This document shows positions 33,990-59,015 of a stretch of 60,557 nt of DNA, one piece after another. The stretch lies in the NCBI RefSeq assembly GCF_003946335.1, contig NZ_RHNX01000017.1:1-60557 (forward strand). Reading direction: 5' to 3'. The notes below the pieces were generated by a model. The model worked only from the letters and a program-made list of their open reading frames with translations, ran no database searches and was not told the DNA's origin. Each line of letters begins with the position of its first letter. Positions within the stretch are counted from its first letter, which is position 1. Made by a program: the position numbers and the translations under genes. Source of the DNA: Levilactobacillus fujinensis (lineage in GTDB: Bacteria; Bacillota; Bacilli; Lactobacillales; Lactobacillaceae).

Positions 33990-34880
33990 TTGAAGAAGTT
34001 AGCACCCCTATTTGTGGGGTTAGGCGCGCTTAGTTTTGGTGTGCCCGCGTCGTTATTTAAAATTGCTGCTCGCGAAGGCGTTGTCAACGGGCCGTTATTG
34101 TTCTGGTCCTTTTTAAGCGCCGTCATTATTCTTGGCGTGATCCATATTGCCCGCCGGCGATGGCTGCGGTACCAACATACCAACTGGAAACAGATCTTGC
34201 TGGTGATTGCCGCTGGGACGGCGTCTGGATTCACGAACACGTTCTACATACAGTCCTTGAAATTAATCCCGGTCGCTGCCGCCGCGGTCATGCTGATGCA
34301 GGCCGTCTGGTTGTCAGTCCTGTTGGGAGCGATTATCCACCGGCAATGGCCGACACGACTGCAAGTGCTGAGCATTGTCTTGGTCTTGATTGGGACGGTA
34401 TTGGCCGCGGGGCTTTTTCCAATTGAACAAGCACTCTCACCGTGGGGGTTATTCCTCAGTTTTTTGGCGGCTTGTGCCTACGCCTGCACGATGCAGTTTA
34501 CGGCCAGCTTGGGCAATAACCTTGATCCGTTGAGTAAGACCTGGTTGCTGTGCGTTGGCGCCTTTCTCCTGATTTCCATTGTCTGGGGACCACAAATCGT
34601 AACGGCTCGAATCACGGCACCGACGATTGGGTGGGGGATGTTGATTGCACTATTCTCCATGGTCTTTCCATTGGTGGCCTATTCGATTTTTATGCAGTAT
34701 TTGGACTTGGGTATCGGCCCGATTTTATCTTCGCTGGAATTGCCGTCATCCATCACGGTGGCCTTTATTTTGTTAGGTGAAACTGTGAGCTGGCTACAAA
34801 TGCTGGGTGTGGTGATTATTATTTCGGCCGTTGTTTTGCCCAATGTATGGGGCATGCAGCGCCGCGGGCAACTCGACTAA
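33990..34880 (+). CDS. EamA/DMT-family transporter, 296 aa
   Basis: Ten hydrophobic segments form two EamA repeats, with the typical ending LPSSITVAFILLGETVSWLQ in the second repeat. These transporters export or import small metabolites such as amino acids; the substrate is unknown. The start is TTG 33990 with GAGGTGA upstream. A parS site follows the stop codon after two bases and overlaps the start of the terminator stem. Confidence 0.87.
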   Translation: MKKLAPLFVGLGALSFGVPASLFKIAAREGVVNGPLLFWSFLSAVIILGVIHIARRRWLRYQHTNWKQILLVIAAGTASGFTNTFYIQSLKLIPVAAAAVMLMQAVWLSVLLGAIIHRQWPTRLQVLSIVLVLIGTVLAAGLFPIEQALSPWGLFLSFLAACAYACTMQFTASLGNNLDPLSKTWLLCVGAFLLISIVWGPQIVTARITAPTIGWGMLIALFSMVFPLVAYSIFMQYLDLGIGPILSSLELPSSITVAFILLGETVSWLQMLGVVIIISAVVLPNVWGMQRRGQLD

Positions 34881-34882
34881 AA

Positions 34883-34898
34883 TGTTTCATGTGAAACA
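34883..34898. promoter_or_regulatory. parS-like site 6
   Basis: TGTTTCATGTGAAACA is one base off the consensus. It sits between the EamA stop and its terminator. Confidence 0.78.
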
Positions 34899-34931
34899 AA
34901 AGGGCGATGACGATTTGTCATGGCCCTTTTA
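34898..34931. terminator. Bidirectional rho-independent terminator
   Basis: AAAAGGGCGATGAC pairs with GTCATGGCCCTTTT. It terminates the EamA gene and, on the other strand, overlaps the stop codon of a tiny membrane-peptide gene. Confidence 0.9.
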
Positions 34932-35060
34932 GCTTGTTTGCTGCACGAGAACAATTGATGGTTCGATGGCTTGACTACGGACAATGCGATGGCCCAACAC
35001 GATACTGGCGGTAGCGCCCAGAATAATAATGGCGAGAATCATCTTCAACGTTTTACTCAT
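34929..35060 (-). CDS. Tiny membrane peptide, 43 aa
   Basis: ATG 35060 is preceded by GAGGAGG at good spacing. The frame encodes MSKTLKMILAIIILGATASI, then VLGHRIVRSQAIEP and a short tail: one transmembrane helix with a basic start. The stop lies in a shared terminator. TGGTAAACT just upstream fits an extended -10 box. It is real by its translation signals, but no family is recognised. A similar tiny gene is at 41969. Confidence 0.65.
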   Translation of the reverse strand: MSKTLKMILAIIILGATASIVLGHRIVRSQAIEPSIVLVQQTS

Positions 35061-35296
35061 GGCCTGACCTCCTCACCGGTAGTTTACCATGAATCGGCTA
35101 TTGTGAGGGAAAAGTCGTTACGGTCGGTCACCATTCATTGCTACGCGGTTTGATTGACCGGGTACGATGGGACTGCTAGGTTGAAAGGAAGAGCAGAATC
35201 GTCTAGACCGCGGGGAAAGTTTTACGTATACTGAAAGAAAACTAAGAGGAGGCCGATATCATCGCCGTTACTTTATCCGACAAATTAAGAGACCTG

Positions 35297-36769
35297 TTGT
35301 TAGCCAGCAACCTGGGATTGAGTCGCGACCATCGACTGGCAGGTTGGAATGTGCTGACCATTTTATACCACGACGGCGCAACGAGTGGCGTCGTGACAAC
35401 GCTGGGGACTCTGCTACAGGCATACAATGCCAACTACCTTGAGCTGGACGAGCGGCCACTGACCGATGTCGTCTTGAAGCGGATTTTGGACGTATTGAGT
35501 GATCAGGCTAAATTGGTCGAGGTGGCGCCACGAAAAGTGCGCTTACCGATGAAGAATGGGGCCTATCACATTCAGCAATCGTTCGTGTATAAGATCACCA
35601 GTAGCGGCATCGAATATTTGAGCATGATGCAGCGGGTCATCGATGCCGACAACACGGTGACCGCCAATATCACACGGATTCAAGAATACTGTGATTTAGT
35701 CGTAAAACTGACGGACCCTAGTCTGGCTGCAGATAGTACGCAGTTGTACAACGACTTTCAAAATATGCTAGCAGCTTACGCGGATGTGATGAAAGGGATG
35801 CATAAGTTAGACGAGGACCTCAGCGAACTGGCAAATGACTTGGCCTTCAACCATGGTGGGGAGGCGGCCAATCACTTGCAAGAAATGTTGCGGGATCGTG
35901 CCATTCCGGCATTTCGAAAATTACTCGCGCAGGGGCCAAGGCTACAGGCGTTGGCCAATTCAACAGATTTTAGCCAACGAGTTGCTCGTAGTCAACAAGG
36001 GAGCGATGACTTAGACGCCGCGCATGCCGTGGGTGATCAAGGGAAAATGTTGATTCGGTTTCGGAACGCACGGGATTATTCGCAGCGGCAATTAGATCGC
36101 TTAGCTGCCAGTTTCGATCCCAGCCCAACCGCAATCGATAGCAGTATGGACACGGTCTATCTTCTCTTTCAAACAATTCTGGATGCGATTCGCCTGCTCA
36201 GTCAGGAGTACGACCACATTCAGGGGCAAACGGTCGATATTCAAGCATTGACGGGTAAAATCGATGAGTTGCTGACACATTATCAAGCAATCGTGGTTCA
36301 GCAACCGTTGCCACGGCACCTCCCGCAGGATCGAGAAGTGGACGATGCCGCTGATTTGTTGGACGCCACGACGATGGGAGCCGTCGTTTACGAAGCCATG
36401 CCGCAGCGAACCGTTGCCGTTACTGAGGCGGACAACCCGCAGTTAGCGGATGATGATCCAGACGTAGCGGATGATCAGGAAGGTCTGGCAGAGTTTCAAC
36501 GTGTGGTTATGCAGCGTACTGATTATGGCGTGGTCGACCACGATTTAGAGATGACTTCAATTCATGCACGTGATGAATTGATTCGGCTGTATAGTGCGAC
36601 TGGAATTGACCATTACGATAGCTTTGCGCCGTTTGGCCGACCGGTCGTGAAAGTTGAGGCTTTATCAAATAGTCACCCAATTCACGTTCATTGTCGGGGC
36701 GAAGCGTACACGGTGACCTTGCCGAGCGGTTTTGCGGTTTGGTTTTCACCGACGACGGATACCTTATAG
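35297..36769 (+). CDS. jetA: JetA-like subunit (MukF/kleisin-like) of a Wadjet-type system, 490 aa
   Basis: This is the first gene of a four-gene cassette (A, B, SMC-like C, TOPRIM D) in the Wadjet/JetABCD order. The protein is mainly helical with a winged-helix-like N-terminus (RLAGWNVLTILYHDG), a long helical middle and a C-terminal part that may contact the SMC head. TTG 35297 is the first usual start, but AAGAGGAGG lies at 35244-35252 and the frame is open from 35246. The codons at normal spacing are ATC ATC (35258, 35261), so initiation is atypical or a start codon has been lost. Sequence similarity to known JetA is not obvious by eye; the call rests on context, size and fold pattern. 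Confidence 0.65.
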   Translation: MLASNLGLSRDHRLAGWNVLTILYHDGATSGVVTTLGTLLQAYNANYLELDERPLTDVVLKRILDVLSDQAKLVEVAPRKVRLPMKNGAYHIQQSFVYKITSSGIEYLSMMQRVIDADNTVTANITRIQEYCDLVVKLTDPSLAADSTQLYNDFQNMLAAYADVMKGMHKLDEDLSELANDLAFNHGGEAANHLQEMLRDRAIPAFRKLLAQGPRLQALANSTDFSQRVARSQQGSDDLDAAHAVGDQGKMLIRFRNARDYSQRQLDRLAASFDPSPTAIDSSMDTVYLLFQTILDAIRLLSQEYDHIQGQTVDIQALTGKIDELLTHYQAIVVQQPLPRHLPQDREVDDAADLLDATTMGAVVYEAMPQRTVAVTEADNPQLADDDPDVADDQEGLAEFQRVVMQRTDYGVVDHDLEMTSIHARDELIRLYSATGIDHYDSFAPFGRPVVKVEALSNSHPIHVHCRGEAYTVTLPSGFAVWFSPTTDTL

Positions 36770-36849
36770 GAAGTGGCAGATAACTCATGAGCTGTATTAG
36801 GCGAACGGTCTGTACCGAGTTAGTAAAGGTTGTATTGTTTATGTAAACG

Positions 36850-36880
36850 AGAACGTTTGTTCGGATTAGCGTGCTATACT
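36850..36880 (+). promoter_or_regulatory. LexA/DinR-like box overlapping the jetBCD promoter
   Basis: AGAACGTTTGTTCG (36850-36863) read on the other strand is CGAACAAACGTTCT. This fits the Gram-positive LexA box CGAACRNRYGTTYC at 13 of 14 positions. It overlaps the -35 region of an extended -10 promoter, TGCTATACT (36872-36880). It lies in the 204-bp gap between jetA and jetB. Confidence 0.68.
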
Positions 36881-36973
36881 GACAAAACAGAGAAAGGAAA
36901 TATGTAAATTTGATAAGCTTGGTGCGTTATTTTGACCGACCAGACTTTTTCATCATTTGCATAGCGGGTGCCT

Positions 36974-37981
36974 ATGAGTGATTTACACGGACCAGAACAA
37001 CTAATCGTCAATGAACTACTAGATCATGGTATTTTCACCAGTACCATCACGCCACAAACCAGTAAGCAAAGGGCGGATGCGATTAATGCCTTAAAACGGC
37101 CCTTGACTCAGCAACGGCTAAATAGCTTTTTCAAGGGCCTACTAGGCGTTGTTCCAGACAACTATCAGGAAAACCTCTTGTTCCTTCTGAGTAACCAGCG
37201 ACTGGACGCCGATTCTGTCCATGTCTTGTTGGCAACCCTCAAAGCCGTTATTAATTTACCGGAATTACAGAATCAGCAAAGTGACCGCGTCGTCTTGACC
37301 CAGACAATTGTTCGTCAGGTTCACAGCGAGGTTGTGAATCTCGATGAAAAGGAAATTCGGCGACGGATTACGGCGTTATTTGTTGACCGATTTGGACTGT
37401 TCACACCAGATATGCCTGAGGTCAGCGCCGTTGAACGAACGGAAGAAATCGATGATTACTGGGACGTTAGCGCAGACTTCAACTACGTGGCGGCTTGTTT
37501 GGTGGAACATTTGCAGGCTGCTACGGTGGCCCCAGAACCAACACCGTTGCAACGGGTGAACCGGACCTTACTGACACAACGGTATGTGGATCGGTCGTCA
37601 CGTGTCTGGTTAGATTTGGTCACGCATAAGACAGAGATTGCCGAGCAGTGGGCGCAATTGGACCGGTTTGATCTTGAGTGTGGGGATGACTATGCCCCAT
37701 TATTGGATAAGTCACGGAAAAAAAGTGAAGCGAAACCCGCGGTCGTTGCTGTCGCAGTGGCACGTTCACTGGGAGTGGGGCTACCAACGGATATGGTGAC
37801 GACACGGATTCATCAGATTGTTCATCAGTTGTTCCCAGAGAGTACGATCAATGTCACACTGGTTAAACAAGCCTTAACTGATATGGCGTTAGTTCGTGAG
37901 CGCGACGGGTATGTCAGTCCGACCCCGATTGCCCACCGATTTTCCATGCGGACACAGCAAGTTACAACGGAGGAAAAGTAA
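36974..37981 (+). CDS. jetB: JetB-like subunit (MukE-like) of a Wadjet-type system, 335 aa
   Basis: This soluble, helical protein has a winged-helix-like C-terminal part (INVTLVKQALTDMALVRERDG). It sits directly before the SMC-like gene, its TAA touching the next ATG. MukE/JetB subunits bridge the kleisin and the SMC heads. ATG 36974 is chosen, but no good ribosome binding site precedes it; a GTG two codons earlier is possible. A short frame TTG-ATA-AGC ending at TGA 36979-36981 overlaps the start by eight bases and could couple translation. An SOS-like promoter lies upstream. Confidence 0.65.
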   Translation: MSDLHGPEQLIVNELLDHGIFTSTITPQTSKQRADAINALKRPLTQQRLNSFFKGLLGVVPDNYQENLLFLLSNQRLDADSVHVLLATLKAVINLPELQNQQSDRVVLTQTIVRQVHSEVVNLDEKEIRRRITALFVDRFGLFTPDMPEVSAVERTEEIDDYWDVSADFNYVAACLVEHLQAATVAPEPTPLQRVNRTLLTQRYVDRSSRVWLDLVTHKTEIAEQWAQLDRFDLECGDDYAPLLDKSRKKSEAKPAVVAVAVARSLGVGLPTDMVTTRIHQIVHQLFPESTINVTLVKQALTDMALVRERDGYVSPTPIAHRFSMRTQQVTTEEK

Positions 37982-40900
37982 ATGAAATTAAGAACCCAAT
38001 TAACGCCAGTGAGCTTTCACCTGCGAAACTTTAATAAGTATTCGAGTTTAGACTTAGCCGCTGCAGAAAATGGGAATCTCACGCTGATTGGGGAAAATGC
38101 GGCCGGAAAAACAACCCTAGCCAATTGCTTTTTCCCGATGTTGATTGACGGATCAATCGCAACGCCATCGTTTAATTCTGCCAAAGGGACTGATCGCTTA
38201 GAGAGTACGGGAGCCCCGCGGAATAGTCAGCGAGACACACGGAATTTCGAGAGCATGCTACTGGGGTGGGGACCAGGTGCGATGAAGGTCCGTACCGGCT
38301 ATAGTTATTTGTTGCTGCGGTCAAAGACACGACAGGTCATCTTAGGCCTAGGTGCCCACCGTGCTGTGGGTGAGCTACGTAAGCCAACCTGGTGGTTTGT
38401 CGTCATCAGTAATGAGACAACGACTGGTTTAAACATCGTAACCACCAATGCTGACGACAATAGTCTGGATGAAGATGCTTTTCGTGCGGCTAATGCTGGA
38501 CTGGGGAAGCAATTACATATTTTTAATCAAGCACCGGCTTATCGCGAGTACGTTGCCACCCAGGTTTACGGTTTTTCGAACGGAGAAGCTTTGGGCAAGC
38601 TGGCCGCAGTCTATCGGTTATTGGCGTCTCCTATTTTGACTGGGGGAAATGCACGCTTTACCCCAATCAGGGAAGCCCTGAAGAATGCACAAGAGGGTAT
38701 CGATTCACAGGTAATCAGTCAGGTCGCGGATAGCCAGCGAGAGGTTAATCGGACCAAGGGTGTGCTCCAACGGCTGAAGAAGGCAGAAGAACGCCTTCAA
38801 CGGATGAAAAAAGAAATTTTTTGGCGTAATTTGAATCATTTACGAGAAGCCGCTTTAGACCCCTATAGTCAGGTACACCAGGACTTTGAGGGCAAACAAG
38901 AGACGGTGAGTCAAAACCAGCAGACCATTGGGCGGGTCACGCAACAATTAACATTGATGGCAACGAACCTCACGAAAGTTGAAGATACTTTGAAGGGGTT
39001 ACGTCAAGAAAAGGCCAATCAGAATGGTATTGTGCAGCGCCGGCAAGAGTATGAGCAACAGATTACTAGTCTCCAGCAACGGTTGGTGACGTATCGCAAG
39101 CAACAGGAACAGTTGACAGACTTGCGAAAGAAGTTAGCAGTAGTTACGACGCAACAAGGTGAACTGACAGCCCAGCAACAGGCGCTAAACGAGCAAGAGT
39201 TGCGACCGTTATTGACCAAGTTAGCCGCTCAGGCAACCGAGCTCCCGGAATTGATGGACGTGGTCACGGAGGTCGATTCGACTAAGTTGGCCCAACGGCT
39301 GGGCGAGTATCTCCAGCAATTCAAGGATCTCCGCAATCAGTATGAGGACTGTGAACGAGCCAAGGAACGAGTTAGTAAGGATGTTCAAATCGTCGTGGAA
39401 ATGCGGGATGAACTACGTGGTCGCATTGATGAACATGCCCAAGGACCACTATATGGTCGTGTAAGAAAGGATATTCACCAGGATAACCAGGAGGTCCATG
39501 ATGCCGGTGCGACCCAGATGAACGGTGAATTTCAGTTATTATTGGCAAAACAACAGCAATTGCTGAAAGACCACCCAGACCTAAAGCGTATCCTTAAAGC
39601 GCCAGATTTCTTGAATGATTTACGTCAGCAACGCCGACGATTGACGGAGCTGTTGCAAGAAATGGCTGAGGGTCAACGACAACTTGACCAACTGACGCAA
39701 CAGCAGCAATTCTTTGATCAACAGATTACGGATGTACTAGCAGCCGTTGAGCCCGATTTCGATGAACAGCGCGTGACCGCAGAAGTAAAGGATACGCAAC
39801 AGCGGCGTGACGCGTTAATTGTTGACACTGAAATCGACAAAAAGATTCAGCAAACAGAGGCAGAACAAACACAGTTGAATGGGGAACAGCAACGACTAAA
39901 CAATCAACGGGCCATAGCTGAGGGGAAAATTGCAACGGCCAAGGAAGATATGGCGCGGTTGACGACCCGGCTAGAGCAGTTGGCAGAACAGGGACGGGTT
40001 GCGTTGGAAACGTTGGCACCCTACCAGCCACAAGATGCACGCTTAACGACGATTACTAAGGCGATTGAATTTGTGCAAGAAAATCGGAGTATCGTTCGGA
40101 ATAGTAGTTACGGTGATATCAGTGATTGGATTGGCCGGTTGATTCATCACAATGACAGTAACGGCATCGACCGTAATGCTTTAGATACCTTGTTTGAAGA
40201 ACGAGGATACGCTGATTTTGCTAGTGCCATGCGCCAGCAGCGTTCTATTAATCAGAACGGCTTGACGGTAGTTGCTTTTGATATCAATCGGGCATTATTG
40301 TTGATGACCACAGATCAGAACCACGTGACAAAATCTTTGAAGGAACTCACGACGGGAAATGATGTCGCGCAGGATACGTACTTAACGGCCGCAATCCAGC
40401 GAATTACGGCGCAATATCGATTGATTGCAGACTATAACCGGATGTTAACGGAAGGGGTTAGCCGCGAACAAAGTATCAAACTGAAGGTTGAGCTGACGCC
40501 AACTGAAGTCAGTGATCAAGTCATTAAAGAGGCTTGTGATCCACTGACCGATAAGCGGCCGGCCTTGGTTGCGGAGATTCGTAATCGGCTTGAGAAATTG
40601 GCTAATGACTTAACGGTTGCTGATGATGACGATCTGTTTATGGATGCGGCCCAGCGCTTGCTAGATACGCGTCAATGGTCAGCCTTTAAGGTACTGATCA
40701 AGCGGCGTCAAAGCGCAGAGGACAACTATGAAGAGGTTGATGATAAGTTCGTTCAGTCTGGGGGATCAGGAGCTGAAAAGGCTCAGGCGATGGTCTTACC
40801 ATTGTTGCTAGTTCCGAAGATGGTCTTGCAGCGTGCACAAAATGAGGATGCCCCATATTTAGTGATGTTTGATGAGTTTGCTGACAAGTTAGATCCTGAA

Positions 40901-41116
40901 ACAGCAAAGTCATTTGCTAAAACGATTGCGCGTTTCGGATTCAATTTCATTGCGACCATGCCGAGCGGTGCGCAGAACAAAATTTTGGCCGACCGGGTGG
41001 ACAACATCGCGTACGATGTGATTGCGCCACAAAATCAAAATGACGGCCGGTTCCATCGCAATATCATCCGGGAAGCTTTGAGCTGGGGGGATGCGCATGC
41101 CAAGTCAGTATCGTAA
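37982..41116 (+). CDS. jetC: JetC-like SMC/MukB-type ATPase of a Wadjet-type system, 1044 aa
   Basis: Walker A GENAAGKT (37-44) lies near the N-terminus. Two long Gln/Glu-rich coiled-coil arms (about 270-470 and 560-690) flank a hinge-like middle. The C-terminal head has the ABC signature SGGSGAEKAQAM (about 926-937) and Walker B with the catalytic Glu, MFDEF (962-966). This is the SMC/MukB/JetC architecture, though shorter than MukB. Wadjet complexes extrude loops on small circular DNA and cleave it through JetD. The neighbours on both sides fit A, B and D subunits. The stop overlaps the jetD start by 20 bases. Confidence 0.88.
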   Translation: MKLRTQLTPVSFHLRNFNKYSSLDLAAAENGNLTLIGENAAGKTTLANCFFPMLIDGSIATPSFNSAKGTDRLESTGAPRNSQRDTRNFESMLLGWGPGAMKVRTGYSYLLLRSKTRQVILGLGAHRAVGELRKPTWWFVVISNETTTGLNIVTTNADDNSLDEDAFRAANAGLGKQLHIFNQAPAYREYVATQVYGFSNGEALGKLAAVYRLLASPILTGGNARFTPIREALKNAQEGIDSQVISQVADSQREVNRTKGVLQRLKKAEERLQRMKKEIFWRNLNHLREAALDPYSQVHQDFEGKQETVSQNQQTIGRVTQQLTLMATNLTKVEDTLKGLRQEKANQNGIVQRRQEYEQQITSLQQRLVTYRKQQEQLTDLRKKLAVVTTQQGELTAQQQALNEQELRPLLTKLAAQATELPELMDVVTEVDSTKLAQRLGEYLQQFKDLRNQYEDCERAKERVSKDVQIVVEMRDELRGRIDEHAQGPLYGRVRKDIHQDNQEVHDAGATQMNGEFQLLLAKQQQLLKDHPDLKRILKAPDFLNDLRQQRRRLTELLQEMAEGQRQLDQLTQQQQFFDQQITDVLAAVEPDFDEQRVTAEVKDTQQRRDALIVDTEIDKKIQQTEAEQTQLNGEQQRLNNQRAIAEGKIATAKEDMARLTTRLEQLAEQGRVALETLAPYQPQDARLTTITKAIEFVQENRSIVRNSSYGDISDWIGRLIHHNDSNGIDRNALDTLFEERGYADFASAMRQQRSINQNGLTVVAFDINRALLLMTTDQNHVTKSLKELTTGNDVAQDTYLTAAIQRITAQYRLIADYNRMLTEGVSREQSIKLKVELTPTEVSDQVIKEACDPLTDKRPALVAEIRNRLEKLANDLTVADDDDLFMDAAQRLLDTRQWSAFKVLIKRRQSAEDNYEEVDDKFVQSGGSGAEKAQAMVLPLLLVPKMVLQRAQNEDAPYLVMFDEFADKLDPETAKSFAKTIARFGFNFIATMPSGAQNKILADRVDNIAYDVIAPQNQNDGRFHRNIIREALSWGDAHAKSVS

Positions 41117-41906
41117 GCGTTATGTTGCGGAAACGGGGAAGGTCGTACCAAAAGAAGCCAGCCAATTGGATAGTCTATTTGACAGGATTGCGGTGGGAGA
41201 GACTCTACCACCTCGTGGTCAACAGGCAGTCGAAGCAGGATTAACGGCACATAGTTTAAATGATGCGCAGGAAAATCCAGCTGTTTATGAGTACTATCAG
41301 TGGGTGCTAGCCAATTGCTTTACCGGACAACAGGTTCACGAGGTGACGGCGAAGTTAATTGGGATGGCGTTTATCTGTGCTAATATTTTTGAGACGGATT
41401 TGCCGCAGCCACTGACATTGAATCCATGGCAGATTGCAGCAATGAAGGACTTTCCTTTGCGTCATCGGCGGGTCGTAATTGTTGAAAATAATGGTGTTTT
41501 TGCTTGGTTACTTCGTCTCCACCCAGAATGGCCGCTAATTGATCAGTGTGGAAATGACTTCAACGCAGCGTACATGGCATTGATGCGAAATTTAGTGAAG
41601 CGTGACGTACAGTTCACCTATCTCGGTGATCTCGACAGTCGGGGTATTCAGATTGCTGATCATTTATTAGGCGAATTGGCGGTTGATCCGGCTACATTCA
41701 CGGCCTTGCAGACACCAGAAAATGTATTGAAATGGGTGACATTAAAGGGAAAAGTTGACCCACAACGGACGCGGCCAGTGACGGTGACCGCATCAGTGTT
41801 TCAACAGGAGTTAAATTCGCTAACGTTAGTCAAAAAGTTCGTGGAACAAGAACAGCTGATTGCGGCGTATGAAACGCTGATTACCGAATGGTTGAAGGAA
41901 AACTAG
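41097..41906 (+). CDS. jetD: JetD-like TOPRIM nuclease subunit (DUF2399-like), 269 aa
   Basis: A TOPRIM pattern is visible: Glu 130 in VVIVENNGVF and GDLD at 177-180 followed by SRGIQIAD, as in the topoisomerase VI A/Spo11-like nuclease of Wadjet JetD and in DUF2399 proteins. It is shorter than classical JetD (near 400 aa) because the N-terminal arm is reduced. ATG 41097 is preferred, with GGGGGG six bases upstream; ATG 41091 is possible. It overlaps jetC by 20 bases, which implies coupled translation. A strong terminator follows, so the cassette ends here. Confidence 0.82.
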   Translation: MPSQYRKRYVAETGKVVPKEASQLDSLFDRIAVGETLPPRGQQAVEAGLTAHSLNDAQENPAVYEYYQWVLANCFTGQQVHEVTAKLIGMAFICANIFETDLPQPLTLNPWQIAAMKDFPLRHRRVVIVENNGVFAWLLRLHPEWPLIDQCGNDFNAAYMALMRNLVKRDVQFTYLGDLDSRGIQIADHLLGELAVDPATFTALQTPENVLKWVTLKGKVDPQRTRPVTVTASVFQQELNSLTLVKKFVEQEQLIAAYETLITEWLKEN

Positions 41907-41915
41907 GGAAATTAG

Positions 41916-41960
41916 AAATGGCGTCGAAAACTCTCTATCTGAGTTCTCGACGCCATTTTG
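41916..41960. terminator. Bidirectional rho-independent terminator
   Basis: AAATGGCGTCGAAAACTC pairs with GAGTTCTCGACGCCATTT, with T on both ends. It ends the jet cassette and the tiny gene at 41969. Confidence 0.92.
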
Positions 41961-41968
41961 AATAAAAA

Positions 41969-42082
41969 TCAAAGTTGTTTGTCATGAACAGTCAAATCGC
42001 CAGCAACCTGACTTGTTCCTAAAGTTACCAGGGTAACGGTAATGAATAAAGCGGCAAAAGACGCAATTAATTTAATCAACAT
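41969..42082 (-). CDS. Tiny membrane peptide, 37 aa
   Basis: ATG 42082 has AGGAGG eight bases upstream (AGGAGGTAAGGCCC then ATG). The frame reads MLIKLIASFAALFITVTLVT, then LGTSQVAGDLTVHDKQL: one transmembrane helix and a short polar tail. TGGTACACT upstream fits an extended -10 box. Layout and leader closely resemble the 43-aa gene at 34929; the two flank the jet cassette. No family recognised; a type I toxin-like role is only a guess. Confidence 0.65.
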   Translation of the reverse strand: MLIKLIASFAALFITVTLVTLGTSQVAGDLTVHDKQL

Positions 42083-42277
42083 GGGCCTTACCTCCTGACA
42101 AGATTGGGTGCTTATCGAAAGTGTACCACGGAAGTTGAGCGCGTGGGAAAGAGTCGTTTTGCCCGTTAATACGAGTTCTTGGATAACTAATCAGTGGGCA
42201 ATTATTTTGCGAGACGTGTATTTAGGCGCTATGGCAATGAGCGAGTACACTGGACCTAACAGTTAGGGGGGACCAAC

Positions 42278-42697
42278 GTGATTAGTATAGAACCGGCAGT
42301 CGTAAGTAGGGTAGAACCCATGATCAGTGAAATTTTTGATCAGCAATTTCAAGCGACTGGGTTGGCACAGCCTAGGAAAGCAGCCGGATTTATTGCGTTT
42401 GGTGTATATGACAAAGGACAGCTAGTTGGCGGTCTGATTGCGCGTCACCGCTATGATCATTTAAAAATTACTGAGTTGGCCGTAAAGCCTGCCTATCAAG
42501 GTCAACGGCTTGGCACACAACTCATCCAAACGGCAGAGGCATTTGGCCGGCAACATCATGTCGTGACGATTACGCTGGGCACGCGTAGCTATCAGGCCGC
42601 CGATTTTTACCGCAAATGTGGTTACCAAGTTTACGGGGAGATTGTTGACCTACCGATGCGTGGTGTGACGACCTATTACTTTGTGAAGCGTTTGTAA
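42278..42697 (+). CDS. GNAT-family N-acetyltransferase, 139 aa
   Basis: The motif LAVKPAYQGQRLGTQLIQTA and the closing DFYRKCGYQVYGEI segment are typical GNAT features. The start is GTG 42278 with GGGGGGA upstream. Its substrate is unknown. It is short but complete, and convergent with the secreted protein gene at 42734. Confidence 0.85.
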   Translation: MISIEPAVVSRVEPMISEIFDQQFQATGLAQPRKAAGFIAFGVYDKGQLVGGLIARHRYDHLKITELAVKPAYQGQRLGTQLIQTAEAFGRQHHVVTITLGTRSYQAADFYRKCGYQVYGEIVDLPMRGVTTYYFVKRL

Positions 42698-58361: not shown

Positions 58362-59015
58362 ATGCGTAAAAGAGTTATGATTTTAGCTGCTAATGGTCAA
58401 ATCGCGCGGCTCGTTGAACACCGTATCTTAACCGAACCGGCGTTTGCAGACGTGACGTTGACGTTATTTCTACGGAACGCCGGTCGGCTCAGCAGTCTAC
58501 AGGCCAATCCGCGCGTGACACTCGTCGATGGTGACATCGCTGATGCGTCCGCCGTGACCGCTGCTATGGCGGGTCAAGACCTAGTTTTCGTGGCGATGGT
58601 CGATCACGATCGACAGAATCGGTTGACCAAGAATGTCATCAGCGCCATGCACGCCAACCATGTGGACCGCGTGTTGTTTGCCAACGTCCTTGGCCTCTAC
58701 AATGAGGTCGGTGGCGAATTTGGTCGCTGGAACTTGGAAATGATTGGCGCAGGGATGGCTCCAGCACGGGAATCCGACAAGCTGCTTGCGCAATCTGGTC
58801 TGGACTACACGACGCTACGGCTGCCTTGGTTGAACGACCGAGATATCGCCTACACCGTCACCACCAAAGACCAACCCTATGAGGGTGTTTCCGGTTCTCG
58901 GGCCAGCGTGGCCGATGTCGTTTTGAAGATGATTGCTGACCCAACGCGCTACAGTCGTGATAGTATTGGGATGGCAGACCCCACAACCGAGGGGCAGAAT
59001 CGCCCAGTTTACTAA
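58362..59015 (+). CDS. NAD(P)H-binding atypical SDR (NmrA-like), 217 aa
   Basis: The glycine motif AANGQIARLV (residues 9-18) and the ending DSIGMADPTTEG place it in the NAD(P)-binding 10-13 / NmrA-like group. Members act as quinone or flavin-type reductases or redox sensors. It starts two bases after the flavodoxin stop with AAGGAG upstream. It is a paralogue of the gene at 59781 (shared ANGQIARLV and PTRYS motifs). Confidence 0.86.
   Translation: MRKRVMILAANGQIARLVEHRILTEPAFADVTLTLFLRNAGRLSSLQANPRVTLVDGDIADASAVTAAMAGQDLVFVAMVDHDRQNRLTKNVISAMHANHVDRVLFANVLGLYNEVGGEFGRWNLEMIGAGMAPARESDKLLAQSGLDYTTLRLPWLNDRDIAYTVTTKDQPYEGVSGSRASVADVVLKMIADPTRYSRDSIGMADPTTEGQNRPVY

Follow-up and report, generated by a model that had tools for sequence, protein, structure and literature searches.

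A compact Wadjet-like JetABCD cassette of Levilactobacillus fujinensis with a LexA-type box before jetB and a probable AUC start of jetA

The window, a 60,557-nucleotide stretch of Levilactobacillus fujinensis DNA, carries a compact, divergent and so far unlabelled gene cassette, whose assignment as a Wadjet-like JetABCD system is supported by family models and predicted folds. In the explanation that we favour and consider probable, the cassette is a type II-like plasmid defence, in which the translation of jetA would be kept low, and in one clade DNA damage would raise the expression of jetBCD. We hold this explanation with caution, because the two fold aligners disagree on the top-ranked kleisin for the A protein, and because a promoter scan listed nothing in the gap between jetA and jetB. 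The host, a relative of food bacteria, would carry a compact four-gene anti-plasmid machine.

Gene content and family placing of the cassette

As the sequence-only reading had claimed, four co-oriented genes lie on the + strand in the order A-B-C-D. They are jetA (35261..36769), encoding a kleisin-type subunit of 502 aa from a probable AUC start (ORF list, start register, folds and profile); jetB (36974..37981), encoding a KITE/MukE-type subunit of 335 aa from a conserved ATG at 36974, for which the ORF list puts GTG 36968 (ORF list, alignment and folds); jetC (37982..41116), encoding an SMC-type ATPase of 1044 aa (family models and ATPase motifs); and jetD (41091..41906), encoding a DUF2399/TOPRIM nuclease-type subunit of 271 aa (family models and TOPRIM residues). 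The co-oriented kleisin, KITE, SMC and TOPRIM genes correspond to the general Wadjet composition, the kleisin fold of A being the least firm element. Of the tight overlaps previously proposed for B-C-D, the one between C and D is real (26 bp, 41091-41116), while B and C merely abut (37981/37982). The SMC motifs read earlier in JetC are GENAAGKT at residue 37, SGGSG at 926 and YLVMFDE at 959, and the TOPRIM-type residues of JetD are E132, D180 and D182, invariant in 23 aligned sequences. The jetC and jetD alignments comprised 23 proteins each, that of jetA 34 of 48 proteins and that of jetB 34 proteins; proteins with inner stops in draft genomes (e.g., A of L029 and L065) were kept out. An Rfam search of 34800-42300 gave no match at the gathering score.

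The type III-like placing suggested earlier did not hold: type II gives the better models for JetC and JetD and also the nearest fold for JetB. The best TIGR model for JetD was TIGR02679 (type II), and JetD3 (E 3.6e-4) was rejected against JetD2 (E 7e-16); every JetC match was to JetC2 or to a non-Wadjet family, so that type III was rejected for JetC too. The best TIGR family of JetC, TIGR02680, scored 74.6 bits, below its cut-off of 462.85. The likeness of JetD to DUF2399 was borne out (DUF2399 TOPRIM, 47.8 bits vs 23.4), and the N-terminal DUF3323 had no match in the window JetD, the L166 JetD having one. Both chains are indeed short for the family: JetC has 1044 aa vs 1375 aa (L166) and 1371 aa (nvJET), and JetD 271 vs 434 aa (L166). 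JetA gave no match to DUF2397/TIGR02677 at E 0.1, its sole link being a remote colinear profile match, and JetB did not match DUF2398, the type II family. Single-sequence hhalign comparisons of the window A and B with L166 JetA and JetB gave no signal (E 0.6 and 0.65), and no relative was found in PDB sequence searches with A, B and D profiles and single C and D sequences. The sole PDB match to the A profile, adenylosuccinate lyase (E 0.085-0.091), was rejected, and a PADLOC Cas85f match of JetB (E 0.009) was taken as noise. The comparison of the predicted folds of A and B, set beforehand as the refuting test, favours the Wadjet-like reading: the nearest fold to JetB was a Wadjet-II chain, and for JetA Wadjet-II chains were top in one aligner and MukF in the other. 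Taken together, these results describe a compact Wadjet branch present in many Lactobacillaceae, the JetA and JetB proteins of which were missed by the family models tried.

The promoter region between jetA and jetB

The A-B gap measures 204 bp to the conserved jetB ATG, as stated before. The proposed LexA box over an extended -10 was recovered in it: the LexA-like box AGAACGTTTGTTCG (36850..36863, + strand), identified by motif match and conservation, fits 9 of the 10 fixed positions of CGAACN4GTTCG, and the extended -10 TGCTATACT (36872..36880, + strand) is invariant in 8/8 aligned copies. No match to the E. coli-type LexA sequence CTGTATATATATACAG was found with up to 3 mismatches. A sigma-70 scan requiring both hexamers listed no promoter in the gap, and no terminator-like site was listed between A and B. 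The box is kept in 4/4 species with a gap of about 200 bp, and 44 other jet loci are without it, so the SOS-type promoter is not a general feature of the system.

Core search and alignment placed the box within a 66-bp SOS-type promoter core (36823..36888, + strand) that is common to the jet gap and the proC promoter. Without gaps, this core is found before jetB and before proC in four Levilactobacillus species (that of the window, andaensis, koreensis and enshiensis); a core search located a proC copy at G000:C43:11395-11460 on the - strand. In total, 14 core-model loci and the proC upstream regions of 30 of 34 genomes were inspected. Read by eye, the 26 other genomes, none of which has a 9/10 box upstream of proC, have a peptidase gene directly before proC in 17 cases and a different stretch there in 9. 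That the core occurs at two places, each time between co-oriented genes, suggests that SOS control is transferable as a unit.

Downstream of the core, a leader contains the Shine-Dalgarno-like AAGGAA followed by the start-stop ATG TAA (36894..36907, + strand); in the other three species the leader ATG is followed by CAA ATT TGA, TAG and TGA. A leader hairpin is possible (36901..36963, + strand, with arms 36901-36909 and 36955-36963), with weak pairing support: 93.8% of cells were paired with one double change, the score was reached by 92 of 500 shuffles, and the folding z-scores of 8 leaders ranged from -2.0 to +0.74.

The start of jetA and alternative readings

The start codon of jetA is probably AUC (35261-35263) rather than a canonical codon. 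It lies 8 nt downstream of the Shine-Dalgarno sequence AGGAGG (35247..35252, + strand), and a consensus scan (9/12) gave a possible promoter, TAGACC - 17 - TATACT (35204..35232, + strand), without a LexA-type box; in the alignment of this promoter GTATAC is present in 6/6 and TATACT in 5/6 sequences. Of 48 jetA genes, 20 have AUC at the start register, and in 13 of the 20 no canonical codon lies close by as an alternative; L053 and L062, which have no jetA match, were excluded from the gap and start-codon counts.

A canonical start of jetA, at TTG 35297 in the case of the window, which would reduce the AUC register to a conserved leader sequence, seems quite unlikely to us. The ORF list does give TTG 35297, three public records (P0007, P0008 and P0028) begin downstream of the register, and of the 20 ATC loci, 7 have a canonical codon 2-3 codons upstream, and 6 of the other 13 have TTG or ATG at codon 5. 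However, the AUC stands at Shine-Dalgarno distance, other genera have ATG, GTG or TTG exactly at its position, and the public records of andaensis and harbinensis (P0001 and P0013) begin at the AUC register. Moreover, L030 and L031 have no upstream canonical codon, their next downstream one being codon 18, and in L028 it is codon 31, though with a GTG 22 codons upstream. The 11 codons after the AUC change mainly synonymously, although the changes are few (2-3 synonymous and 1 non-synonymous per pair). Somewhat less unlikely, yet still improbable, is a reading of the A-B promoter as a regulatory element that was inserted or has decayed, LexA-like by chance and free of LexA control, jetABCD being one operon with an enlarged junction. 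By its motif alone, the LexA-like box could be due to chance: allowing up to 2 mismatches, 23 sites occur in the window vs 30.4 expected, 2 sites remain at up to 1 mismatch, and the 3.0-Mb genome has 24 exact GAACN4GTTC sites vs 38 for the reversed control pattern. In addition, the SOS-type box is confined to one clade, and its second core copy precedes proC, which is not known as a classical SOS gene. It is by place and conservation that the box rises above chance. Among the four jet copies 53/66 core positions are invariant, vs 22/53 positions 5' of the core and 41/85 in the leader; the GAAC and GTTC arms never vary, changes being confined to the central four bases; and the box-to--10 spacing is fixed in 8/8 core copies. 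Sites of the same form are found at recA and at a DinB/UmuC-like gene, the latter named by eye, and 2 of 17 lexA boxes are variants. LexA is encoded and the LexA-type box lies over the promoter; LexA control of the jetB promoter is likely, judging by sequence.

The least probable alternative is that the cassette encodes a housekeeping MukBEF/MksBEFG-like complex, which organises the chromosome instead of defending against plasmids. The kleisin- and KITE-type folds of A and B are common to MukF and MukE, and in 8 of 49 loci the cassette has the same two neighbours, an EamA gene and one gene downstream. Against this reading, a JetD match was present in all 49 jet loci, the TOPRIM residues of JetD are invariant in the 23 sequences aligned, and the occurrence of the cassette in the genus is patchy (17/35 genomes, including that of the window).

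Proposed control and comparison with known systems

In the favoured type II-like defence, by analogy with known systems, JetABC would entrap and extrude small circular DNA, which JetD would cut. Expression would be split: jetA would be read from its own promoter, and its AUC start would be held down by IF3, keeping the kleisin scarce. In the four-species clade, jetA and jetB are separated by the SOS-type promoter cassette that also precedes proC, at which LexA would keep jetBCD repressed until DNA damage or incoming single-stranded DNA raises their expression. The SOS response can be set off by single-stranded plasmid DNA as it enters the cell. The earlier proposal that jetBCD are damage-inducible separately from jetA would fit the conserved box with its extended -10 before jetB, but the box is present in just 4 of 48 jet loci with jetA, and, as no terminator-like site was listed between A and B, transcription running on from the jetA promoter may supply a basal level of jetBCD expression. 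Together, the SOS-type promoter and the AUC start suggest that a DNA-cutting defence is kept under unusually strict control. More tentatively, we envisage two safety catches on an SMC nuclease: an IF3-subject AUC start may hold the kleisin low, and the other three genes may be driven by a portable SOS promoter-leader cassette that entered two unrelated operons in one clade, so that conjugation- or damage-induced SOS would arm the system as the plasmid circularises. If true, plasmid restriction would be tied to the SOS response in a genus of food bacteria where this is testable.

Little is known about the behaviour of Wadjet systems in native hosts, according to PMC12287153. In agreement with the sequence-only reading, no SOS-controlled Wadjet operon was found in the literature searched. 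The folds of A and B resemble those of MukBEF, which, unlike the window cassette, is not known to have a TOPRIM subunit. The CGAACN4GTTC-type box over the jetB promoter and the presence of LexA recall the Firmicute LexA regulon, from which the window differs in that its box sits in a clade-specific cassette. In PMC5472188, sigR (GTC) and infC (ATT/ATC) are described as having IF3-repressed non-canonical starts misannotated by gene finders. The jetA start would share with them the non-canonical codon and the misannotation, being placed differently from record to record, and would differ in lying in a defence operon and in being deduced from sequence. The closest likeness is to Wadjet type II, represented by N. 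vireti nvJET (PDB 9qe0/9qe1; DUF2397-DUF2398-TIGR02680-DUF2399). In contrast to it, the window A and B are missed by curated models, JetC and JetD are shorter and JetD lacks a DUF3323 match; the cassette resembles it in gene order, in the predicted fold of B and, less firmly, that of A, in the JetC ATPase sequence and in the DUF2399 TOPRIM domain.

Layout and distribution of the Wadjet-like cassette

The four co-oriented genes noticed in the sequence-only reading were confirmed at window positions 35261-41906, where the ORF listing places all of them on the + strand: jetA (502 aa, counted from the ATC at 35261), jetB (335 aa, counted from the ATG at 36974), jetC (1044 aa, abutting jetB) and jetD (271 aa, overlapping jetC by 26 bp). 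The window belongs to a 3.0-Mb draft genome, and its JetC is 91-93% identical to that of the nearest named relatives, which are Levilactobacillus species. A jetC match at E 0.001 or better was found in 23 of the 148 genomes searched (own included), with nearly full-length coverage in 20 of the 23; within the genus, it was present in 17/35 genomes. A further 49 loci, all from lactobacilli by record title, carry jetC at 40-93% identity; jetD was detected in all of them and jetA in 47. A large protein set yielded 86 JetA homologues among 7996 candidates scored, and those with names are hypothetical or uncharacterized, save one 'LXG domain-containing' protein. In 8/49 loci (L024-L031), the cassette is flanked as in the window, by the same EamA gene on one side and the same downstream gene on the other.

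The accompanying proposal, that jetBCD would be damage-inducible separately from jetA, was supported in part. No paper tying Wadjet to the SOS response and LexA was found in the open-licence literature. In the portions of the sources consulted, the word 'SOS' is absent (review PMC10586767), nvJET is described as Wadjet-II (PMC12647877), and almost nothing is said to be known of natural Wadjet systems in native hosts (PMC12287153).

The jetA-jetB gap and its LexA-type box

The gap, taken from the end of the jetA match to the projected jetB start, was compared in the 48 loci with jetA, window included. It is 191-204 bp long in four of them, namely the window, L. andaensis (L024), L. enshiensis (L025) and L. 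koreensis (L031), 145 and 167 bp long in L055 and L064, and 8-41 bp long in the remaining 42. Only these four species have a LexA-type box in the gap (CGAACN4GTTCG, at least 9 of 10 fixed positions; window 36850-36863), and no box at this threshold was found in the 300 bp 5' of jetA in any of the 48 loci. The four boxes read AGAACGTTTGTTCG, AGAACGTTTGTTCG, AGAACATCTGTTCG and AGAACATTTGTTCG; their arms are invariant, and variation is confined to the centre. Together with an extended -10, the box lies in a 66-bp core (window 36823-36888), in which 53/66 columns are invariant among the four copies, compared with 22/53 on the 5' side and 41/85 in the leader. This clade-specific SOS-type promoter cassette is one of two surprising parts of the analysis. 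In the leader of three of the four species, a Shine-Dalgarno-like site is followed by ATG and an immediate TAA, TAG or TGA (window 36902-36907, the same place in L024, L025 and L031), a possible start-stop element, followed by a possible hairpin ahead of jetB.

A second window site, CGAACCGGCGTTTG, departs from the LexA-type pattern at one position and is located within an ORF (58433-58446). By eye, the 167-bp gap of Loigolactobacillus jiayinensis (L064:5930-6100) holds a TATAAT-like site and a stem resembling a terminator, without a LexA box; separate transcription of jetA and jetBCD may have had more than one origin.

A lexA family match is present in 58/58 genomes, above the cut-off in 54, the own genome among them. 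The own lexA promoter carries CAAACAGATGTTCG, which is CGAACATCTGTTTG on the opposite strand. This site is identical in the three clade relatives and recurs in 15 of the 17 other Levilactobacillus lexA loci read, the remaining two differing in the centre; the centre of the shared form, ATCT, also occurs in the enshiensis jet box. Taken alone, the motif shows no enrichment in the window (23 matches vs. 30.4 expected), and the own genome has 24 exact GAACN4GTTC sites vs. 38 for the reversed control pattern. When the 23 sites besides the jet site were viewed in context, one was found 84 bp 5' of the recA match; others, by eye, precede a DinB/UmuC-like gene, parE, dnaE and a ComX-like sigma gene, and several are intragenic and chance-like in appearance. 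It is therefore context and conservation, not motif counts, that make LexA control of the jetB promoter likely.

Copies and relatives of the core

A 66-69-bp piece of the gap recurs 5' of proC (named by eye), with jet-proC identities of 83% in the own genome, 81% in koreensis and 79% in andaensis; enshiensis also has a copy there. All eight cores are 66 bp long and ungapped, with 45/66 columns invariant. Among 30 genus genomes read (own included), only the four clade species have the box before proC; of the other 26, by eye, 17 have proC directly behind a peptidase gene and 9 have a different upstream stretch. This pattern is most simply explained by insertion or copying of one promoter-leader cassette between the genes of two co-oriented pairs in the common ancestor of these four species. 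The core also includes TTGTTTACGTAAACAA (window 36835-36850, and in the proC core on contig C43 of the own genome); this sequence is palindromic in the proC copies of the own genome and enshiensis and broken in the jet copies.

In 35 genus genomes, a core sequence model recovered the eight jet and proC cores at E < 1e-18, the next match being at 9.6e-8. This match and one at 4.5e-4, both on contig C9 of the own genome (68036-68095, -; 47166-47233, +), have counterparts across all four clade species (L246-L253). Each has a box, and an extended -10 is visible by eye; no gene is evident downstream, and they possibly belong to SOS-controlled small RNAs. A looser pattern search added one exact match, in another genome (G003, L190), missing from the model's matches. 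At E 0.01 or better, the model matched 44 of 301 family genomes, and most of these matches are short and weak. The strongest beyond the own genome (E 6.6e-9, L257, outside the genus) adjoins the 5' side of a small gene pair resembling, by eye, a toxin-antitoxin pair; among the weaker ones read, two lie, also by eye, 5' of DinB-like polymerase genes (L258, L266) and one 5' of a Tag-like gene (L268).

The start of jetA and a model of expression

The other surprising part is the probable AUC start of jetA. In the window, the reading frame extends upstream of the ATC at 35261 for only six codons, to a TAA, and this stretch is free of ATG, GTG and TTG; AGGAGG lies 8 nt 5' of the ATC, and the first canonical start codon downstream is codon 13. 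Across the 48 loci, the codon at this register is ATC in 20, ATG in 17, TTG in 3, GTG in 2, ATT in 2, ATA in 1 and others in 3. Initiation at a nearby canonical codon would be an alternative: 7 of the 20 ATC loci have GTG, TTG or ATG 2-3 codons upstream, and 6 of the other 13, which have none within six codons upstream (several have one farther up), have TTG or ATG at codon 5. However, L030 and L031 have no canonical codon upstream, their next one downstream being codon 18, and in L028 it is codon 31. The ATC is invariant in the 13 loci, whereas the codons of most other conserved residues differ among them. These loci are not independent, since a tree of the 48 JetA proteins places 11 of them in one supported group and needs three state changes for all 13. 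Among public records, those of andaensis and harbinensis use this register for the jetA start, that of spicheri begins two codons upstream at TTG, and three others begin downstream.

In the proposed model, jetA would be transcribed from 35204-35232 and sparingly translated from AUC. The terminator scan listed no terminator-like site between jetA and jetB in the window, so jetBCD could be reached by read-through from the jetA promoter, and LexA cleavage would raise jetBCD from its own SOS-type promoter. The kleisin share is lower in MukBEF-like complexes, and a scarce JetA kleisin would fit this.

A precedent for a non-canonical start such as that read for jetA is offered by the consulted part of PMC5472188, which gives GTC as the start codon of sigR and ATT or ATC as that of infC, with repression of such starts by IF3.
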